From a virus, in IMG/VR virus record IMGVR_UViG_3300043410_000949, positions 1-20,070 of that record: a stretch of DNA of 20,070 nt; one strand, given 5' to 3'. Position 1 is the stretch's first letter, and each line of letters begins with the position of its first letter. Shown here one piece after another: positions 2,081 through 18,534 of this stretch. The notes below the pieces were generated by a model. It saw nothing but the letters and a program-made list of their open reading frames with translations. It made no database searches and was not told where the DNA came from. The translations under genes were made by a program, and so were the position numbers.

Positions 2081-2297
2081 AAAAATCACTACCATAAACA
2101 TCATGCACTATGACCGTGGTGACGTGGTGTATATCAAGCATCCAGATCTACAGGAAATGGTAGAGGCGGATGCTTTGCATGATCTAAGCGACTTCATTGA
2201 CATGATGTTTGATGCACGTTTTCGAAATGATGTAGCATTGCAAGAATGCTTGGAACGTGCTAAAATACTCTACACTCTGAAGAAACAACATGGATAA
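2061..2297 (+). CDS. Small acidic phage protein, unknown function
   Basis: About 78 residues from the ATG at 2061, or 64 residues if the ATG at 2103 is used. The second start gives a cleaner N-terminus (MHYDRGDVVYIKHPD) and avoids overlap with the cupin gene, but neither has a clear ribosome-binding site. The first half reads as a short beta hairpin; the second half (from about ALHDLSDFIDMM) is helical and charged. No known motif. The stop overlaps the next start by 8 bases, which supports it as a translated gene of the run. Confidence 0.6.
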   Translation: MASGTIKKITTINIMHYDRGDVVYIKHPDLQEMVEADALHDLSDFIDMMFDARFRNDVALQECLERAKILYTLKKQHG

Positions 2298-2751
2298 GCT
2301 AAACATCAACAATGAAATGGCACAGCTGGATCGTAAGAACCGCGAGTTTTACGATGAGCTCACTGACGAAGAACGCAAAAAGTTTAGCCTGTATCTGATG
2401 TTGCGTTGGTCAAGTGCTGTGCAGGCAGATGCCAAAGTACAAAGTTATTACGTTATGAGTTGTAACGAAAACCTTAACAAAAATTACTTTACTATCAGCA
2501 AGCATCCTAAACTGCAATGGCTGTGTGCAACAGCAGTAAGTCCTGGCATTGGTACATTCAAGCATCAGTGGATCGCTCCTAAAAAGCGCGAAGGCACAGA
2601 CAACAAGGCAACTAAGTTTTTAAGAGAAATATATCCACTGCTCAAGGACGATGAAATTGAATTACTCAGAAAGCTCAACACTAAAGACGATCTTAAGCAG
2701 TTGGCTAGAGAGCACGGATGGGATGACAAGCGAATCAAGTCTGACTTATAA
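2290..2751 (+). CDS. Probable DNA polymerase clamp-loader small subunit (gp62-like)
   Basis: A 153-residue, charged, helical protein. The pattern AQLDRKNREFYDEL, LYLMLRWSS, an NxNK-like stretch and KHPKLQWLCATAVSPG followed by KHQWI and a lysine cluster resembles the small clamp-loader subunit of marine T4-like phages (T4 gp62), which works with gp44 to load the sliding clamp. T4 gp62 has the same order of features (a phenylalanine-tyrosine helix, an Asn-rich helix, then a basic K-R-x-x-K-W segment), but identity to T4 is low. The clamp and large loader genes are not in the window. The neighbouring endonuclease VII and zinc-finger genes fit a replication-recombination block. The call rests on remembered pattern and could be wrong. 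Confidence 0.5.
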   Translation: MDKLNINNEMAQLDRKNREFYDELTDEERKKFSLYLMLRWSSAVQADAKVQSYYVMSCNENLNKNYFTISKHPKLQWLCATAVSPGIGTFKHQWIAPKKREGTDNKATKFLREIYPLLKDDEIELLRKLNTKDDLKQLAREHGWDDKRIKSDL

Positions 2752-3424
2752 ATGCAAGTATTGCGAAAAAGATTTCCGCAAGGAATCAACTCTTGCGGCG
2801 CATCTGTGTGAACAAAAACGTCGTTGGCAACAAGAAAAAGAAACAGGGGTGCAACTGGGTCTACGTGCCTATTTGCAATTTTATGAAACCACTCAAGGCA
2901 GTGCTCGATTAAAAAGTTATGAAGATTTTGTTACCAGTCCTTACTACAATGCTTTTGTCAAGTTTGGGCGATATATGGTTGCTCTCCGGGCTATCAATCC
3001 TGTTAGTTTTACTAGCTGGCTCCTAGCACACAACAAGAAACTGGACTACTGGTGCAAGGACAGTTTCTATGAAGAATGGTTACACGAATATCTACGCAAA
3101 GAAAATGTGCAGGATGCATTGGAACGCGGCTTAAAGGAAATGCAGGATTATGCAGACACTCACCCAGATCTTAAAAATGGTTTTAGGGATTATTTCCGCT
3201 ACGGTAATGCTAACCGTATTTGCCACCACATTGCTACCGGTCGCATTAGCCCTTGGATTGTGTATAATTGCGACAGTGGTATTGCTTTTCTCGAGTCTCT
3301 TGATGAGGCTCTTTTGGCCATTGTTCTGCATTGGATTGATCCTGATCATTGGCATCATAAGCTACAAGACTACTTGGCAGACGCCGAATGGTGCAAACAC
3401 ATACTGGGAGAAGCAGGGTTATGA
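2723..3424 (+). CDS. C2HC zinc-finger phage protein, probably nucleic-acid binding
   Basis: A 233-residue protein that starts at the ATG at 2723 inside the previous gene; the frame stays open further upstream, but this ATG places the finger at the N-terminus. The finger is C11-x2-C14-x12-H27-x-C29 with the aromatic and leucine residues usual for C2H2-type fingers. The rest is alpha-helical and rich in W, Y and K, with NANRICHHIATGRISPW and VYNCDSGIAFLESL near the C-terminus as the most distinctive stretches. I believe close relatives occur in marine T4-like phages next to replication genes, but I know no tested function. Binding of DNA or RNA is inferred from the finger. The stop overlaps the endonuclease VII start (ATGA). 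Confidence 0.75.
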   Translation: MTSESSLTYKCKYCEKDFRKESTLAAHLCEQKRRWQQEKETGVQLGLRAYLQFYETTQGSARLKSYEDFVTSPYYNAFVKFGRYMVALRAINPVSFTSWLLAHNKKLDYWCKDSFYEEWLHEYLRKENVQDALERGLKEMQDYADTHPDLKNGFRDYFRYGNANRICHHIATGRISPWIVYNCDSGIAFLESLDEALLAIVLHWIDPDHWHHKLQDYLADAEWCKHILGEAGL

Positions 3425-3801
3425 CCACTAAAGTATGTGCAAAGTGTGGGCAAACAAAACTGTTTGCAGATTTTTGCAAAGCCAGCGGAGGCAATTATCT
3501 TAGATCAGAATGCCGTAGTTGCGAAAAAGATTTAGGAAGAATTAGAAAACTGATTAAAGAAACAGCACCGCCTGTGCCGGACAATTACACGTGTCCTATA
3601 TGTCATCGTGACGAAGAACAGGTTCGAGGCCGAGGCGGGAAAAAGTCTGGTACCTGGTGCATGGATCATGACCATGTAACAAACAAATTTCGAGGATGGC
3701 TGTGTCATCAATGTAACAGAGCATTGGGCGGAATGAACGATAGTATAGAGCGATTACAATTGGCGATTGAGTATTTAGAAAATGCAAAAATTTCAAAGTG
3801 A
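3421..3801 (+). CDS. 49: Recombination endonuclease VII (Holliday-junction resolvase)
   Basis: A 126-residue HNH-family nuclease of the T4 gp49 type, which cuts branched DNA such as Holliday junctions before packaging. Visible: an N-terminal zinc knuckle C6-x2-C9 with C31-x2-C34; then the endonuclease VII core with zinc cysteines C58, C61, C95 and C98, and the catalytic block WCMDHDHVTNKFRGWLCHQC (residues 79-98), where D82-H83-D84-H85 and N99 are the expected active-site residues. T4 gp49 is 157 residues and lacks such a clear N-terminal double CxxC, so the domain order here is knuckle plus short C-terminal helix. The start is the ATG overlapping the previous TGA; an in-frame ATG at 3388 is less likely because it lies within the previous gene. 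Confidence 0.9.
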   Translation: MTTKVCAKCGQTKLFADFCKASGGNYLRSECRSCEKDLGRIRKLIKETAPPVPDNYTCPICHRDEEQVRGRGGKKSGTWCMDHDHVTNKFRGWLCHQCNRALGGMNDSIERLQLAIEYLENAKISK

Positions 3802-4375
3802 CATTGACATTGACTTTGCTGATCGTGATCAGATACTCAAGCTGATCAAGTACACACCTGCAAGCATACTCAAAGACAAACAATTAACAGCGCATAATAC
3901 TGGTGTGTATGTTACCAGCATTCCGCAGGATCCATTTACAGGCTTGGCCAGTTTGGATTACAAGATAGCAGAAGACCGCGGATACTTGAAGCTGGACTTT
4001 TTGAATGTTAACCTGTATCAGCGTGTGTCCAGTCCTGAACATTTGGAACAGTTGATGCAACAGACTCCAGACTGGAATCGTTTGAACACAGATCAACAGT
4101 TCTTTGAGCAGTTGATTCATGTAAACAATCACTGGAATGTGCTAAAGAAAATGCCCGAAGCTGTGGATAGTATTCCACGGCTGGCTATGTTTTTGAGTGT
4201 GATTCGTCCTGCCAAGAGACATTTGATTGGACAAAGTTGGAAAGATGTATCCGCAACTGTGTGGGAACGACCTGAAGATGACACCTACTATTTCAAGAAG
4301 AGCCATGCTGTTGCTTATGCTCACCTTGTTGTAGTTAACATGAATCTAATCAGTTTTGCGAACCAAAACAATTGA
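3782..4375 (+). CDS. Miniature Pol III alpha (C-family DNA polymerase)-like protein
   Basis: A 197-residue protein whose conserved blocks follow, in order, the palm and neighbouring segments of bacterial DNA polymerase III alpha: SDIDIDF at residues 6-12 (compare PDxDxDF, which carries two catalytic aspartates), HNTGVYVT at 38-45 (compare HAGGVVI), YLKLDFLNV at 68-76 (compare LVKFDFLGL with the third catalytic aspartate), LSVIRPAKRHL at 138-148 (compare ALFRPGP) and FKKSHAVAYAHL at 171-182 (compare FNKSHSAAYAL). The PHP, thumb, most finger and C-terminal domains are absent; the full protein would exceed 1,100 residues. Candidate catalytic residues D9, D11 and D72 are kept. The start lies 20 bases inside the endonuclease VII gene. 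Whether it polymerises DNA or has another role is unknown. I am fairly sure of the homology, unsure of activity. Confidence 0.65.
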   Translation: MQKFQSDIDIDFADRDQILKLIKYTPASILKDKQLTAHNTGVYVTSIPQDPFTGLASLDYKIAEDRGYLKLDFLNVNLYQRVSSPEHLEQLMQQTPDWNRLNTDQQFFEQLIHVNNHWNVLKKMPEAVDSIPRLAMFLSVIRPAKRHLIGQSWKDVSATVWERPEDDTYYFKKSHAVAYAHLVVVNMNLISFANQNN

Positions 4376-4720
4376 ACGACGTTTGGTTTTTTTAGCCGCA
4401 ATTTCTTTTAGGCTCACGTAAGGTCCTGCTTTGATTTCCACGTCCCTGCTGTTCATGGTTTTGAGACTGTAGCGGTATGGACCCCAGTCGTTGCGTAGGA
4501 AAACATTAATAGGAATGGTCCTATTGCTTTCCCACCACCAGGTCTCTCCCAGTGTAAGGAATTGGATTTTCTCTTGTTCAGAACGTAGGCTACCGTAATC
4601 GTATACGCAGGTGAGGATATCATCAACATTTTGTATGATGCCGATGTACTCATTGCCTCCGTAGACTACGTAGCTGAGAAATGGATATTTTTTAATAAAT
4701 TCTTTTAGTATGTCGTCCAC
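4346..4720 (-). CDS. Conserved phage protein, only minus-strand gene
   Basis: A 124-residue soluble protein, starting at a GTG (4718-4720) because the frame meets a stop shortly upstream and offers no ATG. The N-terminal half looks like a small beta fold (YVVYGGNEYIGIIQNVDDILTCVYDYG would be hairpins); the middle has LGETWWWESNRTIPINVFL; the basic C-terminus has KKTKRRSIVLVRKTD. The tryptophan triplet and basic tail suggest nucleic-acid or protein binding, but I recognise no family. Similar proteins occur, from memory, in marine T4-like phages. Its 3' end overlaps the convergent mini-polymerase gene by 30 bases, and it diverges from the primase gene. Being on the opposite strand it must have a separate promoter. 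Confidence 0.7.
   Translation of the reverse strand: MDDILKEFIKKYPFLSYVVYGGNEYIGIIQNVDDILTCVYDYGSLRSEQEKIQFLTLGETWWWESNRTIPINVFLRNDWGPYRYSLKTMNSRDVEIKAGPYVSLKEIAAKKTKRRSIVLVRKTD
4361..4393 (+). terminator. Possible weak terminator at the convergent gene ends
   Basis: AACCAAAAC (4361-4369) can pair with GTTTGGTT (4381-4388) with one bulged A, an 11-base loop and a following run of T. It ends the + strand run and lies in the last codons of the minus-strand gene. The stem is AT-rich, so the signal is weak. Confidence 0.35.
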
Positions 4721-4804: not shown

Positions 4805-5908
4805 ATGCAAGATTTGATACAGCAAGAAGTTCTTAACCTACTGCCAGCTCGAAAAAAGAAATCCGGAGACTGGATCAGCTTCAATGCGGTTTGCTGTGTC
4901 CATAATAGCGAAACACCAGACACACGTGGACGTGGCGGTATGCGTCCTAATGCTGATGGTAGTGTGAGTTATCATTGTTTCAACTGCGGCTTCAAGACAG
5001 GTTTCTATCCTGGAAGGCCCATGGGCTTTAAGTTTCGTAAACTGTTAAGCTGGCTAGGCGCAGACAACAACACCGTACAGCGACTGGTCATGGAAGCCTT
5101 GCGTATCAAGGACCTGGTACCTGTAACAGAACGTGTGCCTGTACCAGAAGTTGAAGTTACATACAAGCCACGCCCACTGCCAGAAAATAGTGCTACTATT
5201 CTAGAGTGGGCAACTATGATCCGGTTAGGCCTGCCCTACAATGAAGATGGCACAGTTGAGTGGAAGGACTTACAAAAGGCTGTACCTCAACAGTTAACTG
5301 AAGCAGTTGAGTATCTGCACCAGCGTAAAATCGACATAAAGAAGTATGACTTTTATATAACAGATGAAGAAGCGTACAACTTGCACAAGCGAGTCATTAT
5401 TCCATTCTACTGGAAAGATAAAATCATTGGTTACACTGCTAGGGCGATAGAAGATGATGTCAAGCCCAAGTATCACAATAACCACGATCCTAATTTTGTG
5501 TTCAATATGAACAACCAATTGGCAACTAGCAAGTTTGTCTTGGTAATGGAAGGGCCGTTTGATGCAATGAGCATAGATGGAGTGGCCATACTGGGCAATG
5601 AATGTAGTGATGTGCAAGCAGACATCATTGAAAGCCTGGGTCGTGAAGTTATTGTTGTTCCTGACTTTGATGCACATGTGAATCCAAAGAATAACAAAAA
5701 GGTATGGGCAGGCAAGAGTCTAGTAGATGCCGCTGTTAGATATCATTGGTCTGTGAGCTTTCCTATCTGGGCAGAAGAATACAAAGACGTTGCCAGTGCT
5801 GTGGAACACCTGGGCAAATTGTTTGTGCTGAAAAGCATACTGGATGCTCGTGAGACGAACGCCTTTAAGATTGAACTCAAGGGCAAAGCAATATATAATA
5901 AGCTATGA
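4805..5908 (+). CDS. 61: DNA primase, T4 gp61-like
   Basis: A 367-residue DnaG-type primase that makes RNA primers for lagging-strand synthesis with the helicase encoded just downstream. The N-terminal zinc-binding domain shows C31-x-H33 followed by C58-x2-C61 in YHCFNCGFKTG. The Toprim catalytic domain shows VMEGPFDAMS (E249) and VPDFDAH (D287 and D289), the acidic residues that bind magnesium. T4 gp61 is 342 residues with the same two-domain plan. There is no C-terminal helicase-binding domain of the bacterial DnaG type. No Shine-Dalgarno-like sequence is seen before the ATG. The stop overlaps the helicase start (ATGA), so the two subunits are made together. Confidence 0.92.
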   Translation: MQDLIQQEVLNLLPARKKKSGDWISFNAVCCVHNSETPDTRGRGGMRPNADGSVSYHCFNCGFKTGFYPGRPMGFKFRKLLSWLGADNNTVQRLVMEALRIKDLVPVTERVPVPEVEVTYKPRPLPENSATILEWATMIRLGLPYNEDGTVEWKDLQKAVPQQLTEAVEYLHQRKIDIKKYDFYITDEEAYNLHKRVIIPFYWKDKIIGYTARAIEDDVKPKYHNNHDPNFVFNMNNQLATSKFVLVMEGPFDAMSIDGVAILGNECSDVQADIIESLGREVIVVPDFDAHVNPKNNKKVWAGKSLVDAAVRYHWSVSFPIWAEEYKDVASAVEHLGKLFVLKSILDARETNAFKIELKGKAIYNKL

Positions 5909-7308
5909 CTAAAGAATTTAATGCTGACCTACAGAAGTTGTTTCTGGAAATGATGTTGCATGACGCACAGAACTATGTGCGTGTGCAGAACATCTACAAT
6001 GAGGAAAACTTTGATCGCAGTCTAAGAGCCGCGGCAAAGTTTATCAAAGAACATGGCAACAAACATCACACGTTGCCCACCATTGATCAAATACGTGCCA
6101 CCACTGGTGTAGAACTTAAATCTATTCCAGACATGAACGAAGGTCACCAAGACTGGTTCATGGCAGAGTTTGAAACATTTACCAAGCAAAAAGAACTAGA
6201 GCGAGCTATTCTCAAAGCCGCTGACATGATTGAAAAGGGCGACTTTGACCCAGTTGAAAAGCTGATCAAGGATGCTGTGCAGATCAGCTTGACAAAAGAT
6301 CTAGGCATGGACTTCTGGGCAGATCCAGAAGGCATGATCACACGCTACTTTGATTCAGGCGGACAAGTAAGCACAGGCTGGCCACAGCTGGACAAACTGC
6401 TCTATGGTGGATTCAGTCGTGGCGAACTAAACATCTTTGCAGGTGGCTCAGGTTCAGGTAAGTCATTGGTTATGATGAACATTGCGCTGAACTGGGTACA
6501 ACAGGGCTTGCAAGGAGTGTATATTACACTGGAACTTAGTCAAGAGCTAACAGGCTTGCGTACCGCGGCCATGCTTACTAATATGAGCACAAAAGACATC
6601 CGCAAGGACAAAGAAACCGCGGCATTGAAGGTCAAGATGGTGGGTAAAAAAGCAGGCAGCTATCAAGTTAAGTCCCTTCCAGCACAGAGCAATATCAATG
6701 ACATCCGTGCGTTCTTGAAAGAATATCAGATTCAAACAGGACGCAGAGTAGACTTTATGATGGTAGACTACCTGGACCTGCTCATGCCAGTTAGTGCCAA
6801 GGTCAGTCCCAATGACTTGTTTGTTAAAGACAAGTATGTGAGTGAGGAACTGCGTAATCTGGCCAAGGAACTGGGCATACTGTTGGTCACAGCAAGTCAG
6901 TTGAATCGTGGTGCGGTGGACGAAATTGAATTTGATCACAGTCATATCTCGGGCGGTATTTCAAAGATTAACACAGCAGATAATGTGTTTGGTATCTTTA
7001 CGTCACGTGCCATGCGTGAGCGCGGACGCTATCAAATTCAGTGTATGAAGAGTCGTAGTTCAACAGGTGTGGGCAATAAGATTGATTTAACCTACAACAT
7101 TGAAACCATGCGTATCACTGATGAGGGCGAAGAAGATGCAGGCAACAGACAGTCTGCCCCATCATCAATTATGAGTCAGATCAAAGCACGTGCTACTGTG
7201 GACGAAAGCACGGGCGAAGTAGTAGACAGTGCCCCAGTTAAAGCAGACTTTGGCGGCAACAACAAGCTGAAACAGATGTTGGCCAGCCTTAAAGGGCAAA
7301 CACAATAG
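5905..7308 (+). CDS. 41: Replicative DNA helicase, T4 gp41/DnaB-like
   Basis: A 467-residue ring helicase; T4 gp41 is 475 residues. The N-terminal 140 residues are helical, as in DnaB N-terminal domains. The RecA-like domain starts near residue 150 (STGWPQLDKLLYGGFSRGEL) and has Walker A GGSGSGKS at residues 180-187, the H1a-like glutamate in TLELSQE, Walker B FMMVDYLDLL (D288), sensor-type TASQLNR and the DnaB H4 region with SGGISK and a nearby arginine-rich MRERGRYQ segment. The last 60 residues are polar and loose. It unwinds the lagging-strand template 5' to 3' and works with the coupled primase. It is the last gene before a gap with a late-type promoter box, so it probably closes an early or middle transcript. 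Confidence 0.95.
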   Translation: MTKEFNADLQKLFLEMMLHDAQNYVRVQNIYNEENFDRSLRAAAKFIKEHGNKHHTLPTIDQIRATTGVELKSIPDMNEGHQDWFMAEFETFTKQKELERAILKAADMIEKGDFDPVEKLIKDAVQISLTKDLGMDFWADPEGMITRYFDSGGQVSTGWPQLDKLLYGGFSRGELNIFAGGSGSGKSLVMMNIALNWVQQGLQGVYITLELSQELTGLRTAAMLTNMSTKDIRKDKETAALKVKMVGKKAGSYQVKSLPAQSNINDIRAFLKEYQIQTGRRVDFMMVDYLDLLMPVSAKVSPNDLFVKDKYVSEELRNLAKELGILLVTASQLNRGAVDEIEFDHSHISGGISKINTADNVFGIFTSRAMRERGRYQIQCMKSRSSTGVGNKIDLTYNIETMRITDEGEEDAGNRQSAPSSIMSQIKARATVDESTGEVVDSAPVKADFGGNNKLKQMLASLKGQTQ

Positions 7309-17157: not shown

Positions 17158-17760
17158 ATGGGCGAAGAAATATCAATAGAAAAACATGAGTTCCCCAACC
17201 TTGGCTATATTGTAGCCGACGTTCCGCGTGAACTGCTGGACGAAATACAACAGCGACTGAACAACTTTGACAGTGGCAAAACAAAATTAAAAAAATTCAA
17301 TCATAGATTGGTTGGACAACTCAAAGAAGAATGGGAATTAGATCTCAGCGACAGAGCTATTGATCTAATAGAGCTGATTTGTAATCAGTGGTTTACGGAA
17401 CATGACATGGAGCCTGACCACAAGATACAGTTGATGGAAATCTGGGTCAATAGACAACGCAAGCATGAGTTTAATCCTATACACAATCACACTGGTGTGT
17501 TGAGTTTTTGTATCTGGTTCAAGATTCCCTATGAACTGGAAGATGAATTAAAAATATACCCTGACTCTGCTGATCAACATGTCAGCATGTTTGAATTTGT
17601 ATACACATCCACAGTGGGAAAGATTACCACACTACCGCTGAAGATTGACAAGTCATGGGAAGGTAAGATGGCTGTCTGGCCTGCACAGATGAGCCACTTG
17701 GTGCATCCTTTTTATACAAGTGATGACACAAGAATAAGCATTGCAGGCAACTTAGGATAA
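17158..17760 (+). CDS. Putative 2OG-Fe(II) oxygenase
   Basis: A 200-residue double-stranded beta-helix protein of the phage 2-oxoglutarate-Fe(II) dioxygenase type. Visible: IWVNRQRKHEFNPIHNHTG with H109 and H111 as candidate iron ligands, a beta stretch LSFCIWFKIPY, and WPAQMSHLVHPFYTSDDTRI with distal histidine H180 and R192 (2-oxoglutarate-binding) followed by SIAGN. Such enzymes are common in marine T4-like phages; substrates are mostly unknown and may be proteins or bases. It has its own late promoter box and precedes two iron-sulfur assembly genes, so the block has an iron theme. The first ligand motif is the less certain part. Confidence 0.82.
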   Translation: MGEEISIEKHEFPNLGYIVADVPRELLDEIQQRLNNFDSGKTKLKKFNHRLVGQLKEEWELDLSDRAIDLIELICNQWFTEHDMEPDHKIQLMEIWVNRQRKHEFNPIHNHTGVLSFCIWFKIPYELEDELKIYPDSADQHVSMFEFVYTSTVGKITTLPLKIDKSWEGKMAVWPAQMSHLVHPFYTSDDTRISIAGNLG

Positions 17761-17764
17761 AAGT

Positions 17765-18211
17765 ATGGCATACTCAGACAAAGTAATCGATCATTATGAA
17801 AACCCACGCAACGTGGGCAAGCTGGAAATTGACGACACCGTTGGTACTGGCATGGTTGGAGCACCTGCCTGTGGTGACGTCATGAAACTGCAAATAAAGG
17901 TACAAGATGGAATCATCACAGACGCCAAATTCAAAACATATGGTTGTGGTTCTGCGATTGCGTCGAGCTCTCTTGTTACAGAATGGGTTAAAGGCAAGAC
18001 ACTGGACGAAGCAGGATCTATCAAGAATAGCGACATTGCTGAAGAGCTTGCTCTCCCACCCGTGAAGATACATTGCTCTATTCTAGCAGAGGACGCTATC
18101 AAAGCGGCCATTGAAGACTACAAAAAGAAACATGTGGATGATGAGCTTGAAGCGTACAAGCGACAAGCACAAGAGCTATGGAATGATTCTTGCACATCAG
18201 TGAGATCATGA
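17765..18211 (+). CDS. iscU: IscU-type iron-sulfur cluster scaffold
   Basis: A 148-residue IscU homologue on which new Fe-S clusters are built before transfer to target proteins. All key residues are visible: PACGD (C36, D38), YGCGSA (C61), and LPPVKIHCS (97-105) with H103 and C104. LPPVK is the motif by which IscU is recognised by the chaperone HscA. Bacterial IscU is about 128 residues; here a helical, charged tail of about 20 residues follows, with an extra cysteine C143. No cysteine desulfurase (IscS) is encoded nearby, so sulfur must come from the host. The stop overlaps iscA (ATGA). As an auxiliary metabolic gene it probably supports Fe-S enzymes during infection. Confidence 0.95.
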   Translation: MAYSDKVIDHYENPRNVGKLEIDDTVGTGMVGAPACGDVMKLQIKVQDGIITDAKFKTYGCGSAIASSSLVTEWVKGKTLDEAGSIKNSDIAEELALPPVKIHCSILAEDAIKAAIEDYKKKHVDDELEAYKRQAQELWNDSCTSVRS

Positions 18212-18534
18212 TAACCTTAACCGAACGTGCGGCAAACAAAGTACTCAAGGCCTTGGATCAACGTGGTCGAGGCGTGGGCATACGCATAGGTGTTAAAACC
18301 ACTGGTTGCTCTGGCTTGGCTTATGTGTTAGAATACATAGATGCTGTGCCAATCACTAGAGACTGGTTCAAGTATGAAAGTCATGGAGCCACTGTTTGGG
18401 TAAACGGTAAAGATATATTTTACCTCAATGGGCTAGAAGTCGATTATGTTCGTCAAGGACTCAATGAAGGGTTCGAATTCCGCAATCCCAACGAACGTGA
18501 TAAATGTGGATGCGGAGAAAGTTTTAGAGTATAA
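18208..18534 (+). CDS. iscA: IscA/HesB-type iron-sulfur carrier protein
   Basis: A 108-residue A-type carrier, the usual family length. The three conserved cysteines are present: C34 in TTGCSGLAY, C100 and C102 in DKCGCGESF, at the spacing of E. coli IscA. A-type carriers receive clusters from IscU and pass them to apo-enzymes. The ATG at 18208 overlaps the iscU stop (ATGA), and the TAA overlaps the next ATG (TAATG), so scaffold and carrier are produced together. HesB-like genes are known in marine phages. Adjacency of both genes argues for function as a pair. Confidence 0.95.
   Translation: MITLTERAANKVLKALDQRGRGVGIRIGVKTTGCSGLAYVLEYIDAVPITRDWFKYESHGATVWVNGKDIFYLNGLEVDYVRQGLNEGFEFRNPNERDKCGCGESFRV

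Follow-up and report, generated by a model that had tools for sequence, protein, structure and literature searches.

The closest described counterpart of the gene studied here is the 'split, minimal Pol III alpha' that Iyer et al. (2021; PMC7824862) reported for the group 2.2 jumbo phages and proposed as a model of an ancestral polymerase. Our literature search found no experimental study of a split Pol III alpha. In the bacterial enzyme DnaE, D401, D403 and D555 serve as metal ligands, while D405 is constant in DnaE and an Asn in PolC (PMC3919608), and for H760 of the E. coli enzyme a steric-gate role is proposed (PMC8485763). In the E. coli sequence, these residues lie in the blocks P400-D401-F-D403-V-D405, K553-F-D555 and K758-S-H760, and R639 belongs to an RPGP block.

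The window that we analysed is a virus fragment of 20,070 bases. Based on its PHROG family, its predicted fold, its invariant residues and the Pfam matches of its homologues, the gene at positions 3782..4375 (+) is assigned as the C-terminal half (C half) of a split minimal Pol III alpha, comprising the palm strands with the metal-binding aspartates and a short fingers segment. The split arrangement is already published (PMC7824862), and the window gene is an additional member from an uncultured phage.

Gene family and kinship with C-family polymerases

The open reading frame at 3782-4375 (+) is intact, with an ATG at 3782, 197 codons and a stop ending at 4375, exactly as the earlier note had it. 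Residues 3-191 of the protein match PHROG_11778, annotated as 'DNA polymerase' (E 1.4e-60). Homologues were detected by tblastn in 63 phage records, which include Phosso, Atu_ph07, PA5oct/Paride, SCTP-2, 121Q, GAP32, RaK2 and CBB as well as two 141-kb Alishewanella phages, and a profile scan of environmental virus contigs yielded at least 599 confirmed relatives. The nearest relatives share about 76% identity or less with the window protein, except for one contig that encodes an identical protein. PHROG_11778 is a real and widespread family, and very common in such contigs.

Sequence comparisons of the window protein with known polymerases gave marginal results. Neither Pfam, which returned nothing relevant for the window protein alone, nor a search of PDB sequences with this one protein, which returned no match, connected it to Pol III alpha. 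In a PDB hmmsearch with the C-half profile, DnaE ranked first at E 2, with weak but collinear blocks, and hhalign against the single E. coli DnaE sequence gave a probability of 14%, a comparison that is underpowered because a single target sequence has no diversity. However, Pfam DNA_pol3_finger matched within the homologous gene of 7 out of 12 isolate phages, in two of them above the curated cut-off. An AlphaFold2 model of the C half, built from 43 sequences of viral contigs only, reached a pLDDT of 94.4 and a pTM of 0.82. Over residues 1-197 this model aligned with the 11 listed Pol III alpha/PolC chains with Z scores of 6.4-9.5 over 173-192 residues, as assessed by residue ranges and Z, and the best unrelated chain reached a Z of 3.3. 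The highest-scoring chain was PolC of Geobacillus kaustophilus (3f2b), with a Z of 9.5 for 189 aligned residues. Foldseek placed seven Pol III chains on top, none of them below E 0.001. Thus the whole chain of the predicted structure aligns to Pol III alpha and has the palm and fingers fold of a C-family polymerase. Since Pfam finger matches, a confident model and a whole-length fold alignment coincide, the C-family identity of the window protein can be considered settled. The match goes well beyond chance, the C half shares common ancestry with DnaE, and the earlier proposal of a heavily reduced derivative of the Pol III alpha catalytic core is borne out by the PHROG match and by fold alignments with Z up to 9.5.

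Alignment with E. coli DnaE equates D7 with D401, D9 with D403, D11 with D405, K70 with K553, D72 with D555, R142 with R639 and H175 with H760. The metal-binding pair D7-I8-D9 is encoded at 3800..3808 (+) and D11 at 3812-3814; the codons of K70-L71-D72, with the third catalytic aspartate and the lysine two residues before it, lie at 3989..3997 (+), that of R142 in the IRP block at 4205..4207 (+), and those of K173-S174-H175, with the proposed steric gate, at 4298..4306 (+). The catalytic aspartates are therefore D7, D9 and D72, and the assignment D9, D11 and D72 in the earlier note was numbered one aspartate too far. D7, D9, D11, K70 and D72 are identical in 215 of 215 unique homologues, whose identity to the window protein ranges from 30 to 76%. 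R142 and H175 are invariant in the same set, but their blocks overlap the patterns used in the search and are partly ascertained, so that ascertainment bias is absent only from the counts for the aspartates and the lysine. The Asp found in all 215 sequences at the D405 position, where PolC has Asn, indicates that the phage family is DnaE-like at its active site.

In comparison with the 1160 residues of E. coli DnaE, the 197-residue window protein is drastically reduced. It consists of palm strands with D7, D9 and D72 and of short fingers that end in the putative steric-gate H175, and it has almost no thumb. The distance from D405 to H511 in DnaE, mostly thumb, is 106 residues, whereas D11 to H38 in the window protein spans 27; R639 to H760 spans 121 residues and its counterpart 33; and 22 residues follow the steric-gate histidine instead of 400. 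Common to both proteins are the palm/fingers fold, D401/D403/D555, D405, K553 and the H760 block, whereas the PHP, clamp-binding, OB and tau-binding regions of DnaE are absent. The PHP domain (PF02811) was not found in 12 related isolate genomes either. A protein of 197 residues that lacks PHP and a complete thumb, fingers and C-terminal region does not qualify as a conventional Pol III alpha subunit. Also, the window protein begins at the PDxDxD motif and is therefore without the preceding palm segment with GRGS, which in the phage system resides in a separate protein. With the thumb gone, a firm hold on DNA is difficult to account for unless helpers take part.

The partner gene and the split point

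When four phage genomes were searched with Pfam DNA_pol3_alpha, one distant gene was found above cut-off in each of them. This gene encodes the N-terminal half (N half), which forms PHROG_11127, has a length of about 170-180 codons and ends with '...GVGRGSSVASYVLFLIGxHKxxSIxYxLDxxEFLK-stop'. The GxGRGS motif is invariant in 80 of 80 N halves, and every catalytic residue of DnaE is retained across the two proteins. In the sequence record of Phosso, both halves are labelled 'DnaE-like DNA polymerase III alpha'. The N and C halves are gp56 and gp16 in 121Q, and XYS97297 and XYS97594 in Phosso.

For the N half, similarity to DnaE is significant already at the sequence level, with an hhalign E-value of 2.4e-6 against DnaE 323-393 and a PDB hmmsearch match to DnaE at E 3e-4. 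Its AlphaFold model (pLDDT 93.3) aligns from residue 65 to the end with DnaE 279-393 with a Z of up to 11.9, and all 16 matches listed are C-family chains. As the N-half alignment ends at E. coli residue 393 and the C half aligns from about residue 396, the break is confined to the short stretch that separates ERFL(N) from PDFDVDF. In relatives of the window phage, a second, distant gene therefore supplies the GxGRGS-bearing palm segment and terminates at the point where the C half begins. The first approximately 65 residues of the N half of L029 (7211-7741, +) and its relatives are confidently folded and lie outside the Pol III matches found; they are a candidate DNA- or partner-binding part.

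Joint inheritance and gene neighbourhoods

The inheritance of the two halves is linked. All 13 genomes or contigs that were selected by their C half contained the N half as well, and the C half was present in 6 of 8 records selected by their N half; it was not detected in the contigs L124 (G009, 543 kb) and L139 (G010, 359 kb), including by a search with a divergent C profile. Both of these long contigs carry the N half and a B-family polymerase (PolB) and may be incomplete. Among the listed C-half tblastn records, 56 out of 60 were also found, by eye, among the listed N-half records, and a profile search added two more. Fused or adjacent halves were not encountered: an N half was absent from the surroundings of all 283 C loci. 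Pairwise distances of N and C halves correlate with an r of 0.90 in 18 genomes, a value without control for shared descent that would also be expected from shared descent alone and that we do not count as evidence for binding.

A B-family polymerase was seen in all 21 related records, which agrees with the earlier expectation that such an enzyme accompanies the gene. Within the 20-kb window, itself a fragment, neither an N half nor a B-family polymerase was seen. L037, a 141-kb Alishewanella phage, has both halves and PolB, and the split enzyme is therefore not confined to jumbo phages. Both halves are also carried by Pseudomonas phage Paride (OR805295), for which replication in dormant cells is reported (PMC10761892). 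DnaQ-like exonucleases (RNase_T) were found above cut-off in 9 of 12 genomes and could serve as a proofreader, although without a specific link.

Each half has fixed genomic partners, as judged from 123 C loci flanked by 3.5 kb or more on each side and from 59 N loci. Downstream of the C half, the window encodes a DnaG-type primase (4805..5908, +; PHROG_47, E 2.1e-34), present at this side in 108 of 123 loci, and a DnaB-type replicative helicase similar to T4 gp41 (5905..7308, +; PF03796, E 6e-21; PHROG_19, E 3e-64), present in 74 of 123. Upstream are genes for two proteins of unknown function, a PHROG_11758 protein (2290..2751, +; 120/123 loci) and a PHROG_11058 protein with a weak C2H2-like motif (2651..3424, +; 119/123 loci). 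PHROG_11058 occurs in 59 records, much the same phages as the C half, and is a possible extra subunit or a lineage marker. For the N half, a clamp-loader gene (gp44-like) follows downstream in 54 of 59 loci. The earlier note had placed an endonuclease VII and a clamp-loader-like gene next to the C half. The former is indeed there (3388..3801, +; PF02945, E 4.6e-15), but as a local insertion seen in 2 of 123 loci, whereas the latter was not found; primase and helicase are nearest, and clamp loaders adjoin the N half.

The 3' end of the C-half gene is overlapped on the opposite strand by a gene for a PHROG_11637 protein of unknown function (4346..4720, -), an arrangement found in 122 of 123 loci. 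The protein contains the motifs WWWESNR and KRSKRRSITLVRK, and its family occurs in 58 phage records, much the same phages as the C half. A convergent pair is thus strictly kept inside a co-directional replication cluster. Elsewhere in the window, genes for a PIG-L-type deacetylase and, directly after it, a cupin (1219-2080, +) may possibly serve in sugar or surface modification, and a 2OG-Fe(II) oxygenase gene (17158-17760) precedes adjacent NifU-like and IscA-like iron-sulphur assembly genes (17765-18534, +).

Possible function and comparison with known systems

Taking these results together, we consider it probable that large T4-like phages possess a minimal Pol III alpha of the DnaE type in two parts, that the window gene encodes the C-terminal one, and that the two halves reassemble as an accessory DNA polymerase. 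A likeness to Pol III alpha by chance or convergence, with the C half unrelated to that enzyme, would be in line with the weak direct profile comparison to E. coli DnaE and with the absence of a Foldseek match under E 0.001. Such a reading is extremely improbable, as only C-family polymerases top the whole-chain fold match, the Pfam fingers matches sit in the right place and a partner with significant similarity to DnaE ends at the split point; judged from the predicted fold and the fingers matches, it appears largely refuted. The protein might also be a complete miniature polymerase on its own, the self-contained core that the earlier note had in mind, since it unites three catalytic aspartates and the fingers histidine in one chain and is predicted to fold confidently without a partner. 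However, the nucleotide-binding palm segment is missing from it and is encoded, in relatives, by a distant, co-inherited gene that ends where the C half starts, and we therefore regard self-sufficiency as highly improbable and the protein as the C-terminal half of a split domain.

Two further readings accept that the protein belongs to the C family and differ in what it would do. A relic without catalytic activity, with a structural or regulatory role in binding nucleotide, the clamp loader or the host replisome, would suit so short a protein, whose GRGS half is not in the same chain, and inactive relatives of bacterial polymerases exist (PMC12926913). In decoys, however, metal ligands are normally lost, whereas D7, D9, D11, K70 and D72 do not vary even among homologues of 30% identity, and every partner half keeps GxGRGS. 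Because all catalytic residues persist, both across the 215 divergent homologues and in the partner half, the decoy or regulator idea of the earlier note is disfavoured, and we judge a relic distinctly unlikely. Somewhat less unlikely, though still against our expectation, is that the halves do assemble and the product is something other than a DNA polymerase, namely a template-independent or signalling nucleotidyltransferase, or a maker or extender of RNA primers working with the primase. The lack of the DNA-gripping thumb, of much of the fingers and of PHP, the constant presence of a B-family replicase and the location of the C-half gene beside a primase would all be compatible with such a product. 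On the other hand, the family retains the H760-equivalent histidine together with its IRP and KKxHxxxY blocks, although these are partly ascertained, and a sugar gate and fingers helix fit template-directed DNA synthesis.

For the accessory DNA polymerase that we favour, the N and C proteins would associate in the infected cell and rebuild one nucleotidyltransferase active site, in which GRGS would hold the dNTP phosphates, the aspartates two Mg ions, and H175 would check the sugar. The complex, we infer, makes DNA beside the phage's own B-family replicase; for the window phage, that enzyme and the partner half are assumed to be encoded outside the 20-kb fragment. Its likeliest task may be short primer extension or gap/repair synthesis at the fork, as the C half lies with primase and helicase and the N half with the clamp loader. 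A thumbless core would need another grip on DNA, perhaps the unmatched N-terminus of the N half, the clamp, or the PHROG_11058 or PHROG_11637 protein. A more specific proposal, which we put forward only tentatively and hold to be rather unlikely in its full form, is that a C-family polymerase of about 370 residues is built in trans for one fork step, such as extension of the RNA primer before hand-over to the B-family enzyme, with the PHROG_11637 and PHROG_11058 proteins as subunits or regulators.

Added here to the published arrangement are the exact split point, the corrected catalytic residues, the absence of PHP, and the fixed neighbourhoods of both halves together with the convergent overlapping gene. 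The main value lies in the corrected residues and the exact split point, by which the 2021 prediction becomes sharply testable, and a direct test is feasible with a pair of small proteins from E. coli phages of the 121Q group, which can be cultured. If the halves form an active enzyme, no more strongly reduced form of the bacterial replicative polymerase fold would be known, PHP, thumb and clamp-binding region would be defined as dispensable parts of Pol III alpha, and the phage would run two polymerases in parallel, one of bacterial and one of eukaryotic type.

Among known enzymes, Pol X and small nucleotidyltransferases of the Pol beta fold have the Pol beta-type palm in common with the split enzyme and are similar in size to its two halves summed (about 370 residues). 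Unlike them, the split enzyme has the sequence motifs and the fingers helix of the C family. The system of Iyer et al. (2021) is by its description the same family, with the same reduction and, as seen in relatives of the window phage, the same two distant genes and co-occurrence with a family B polymerase, and the window gene, as in their definition, encodes a separate short C-terminal protein with the Mg- and template-binding elements of palm and fingers. In comparison with that system, the sequence reported here is new, the N half is not on the 20-kb fragment, and the split enzyme extends to a non-jumbo Alishewanella phage of 141 kb.
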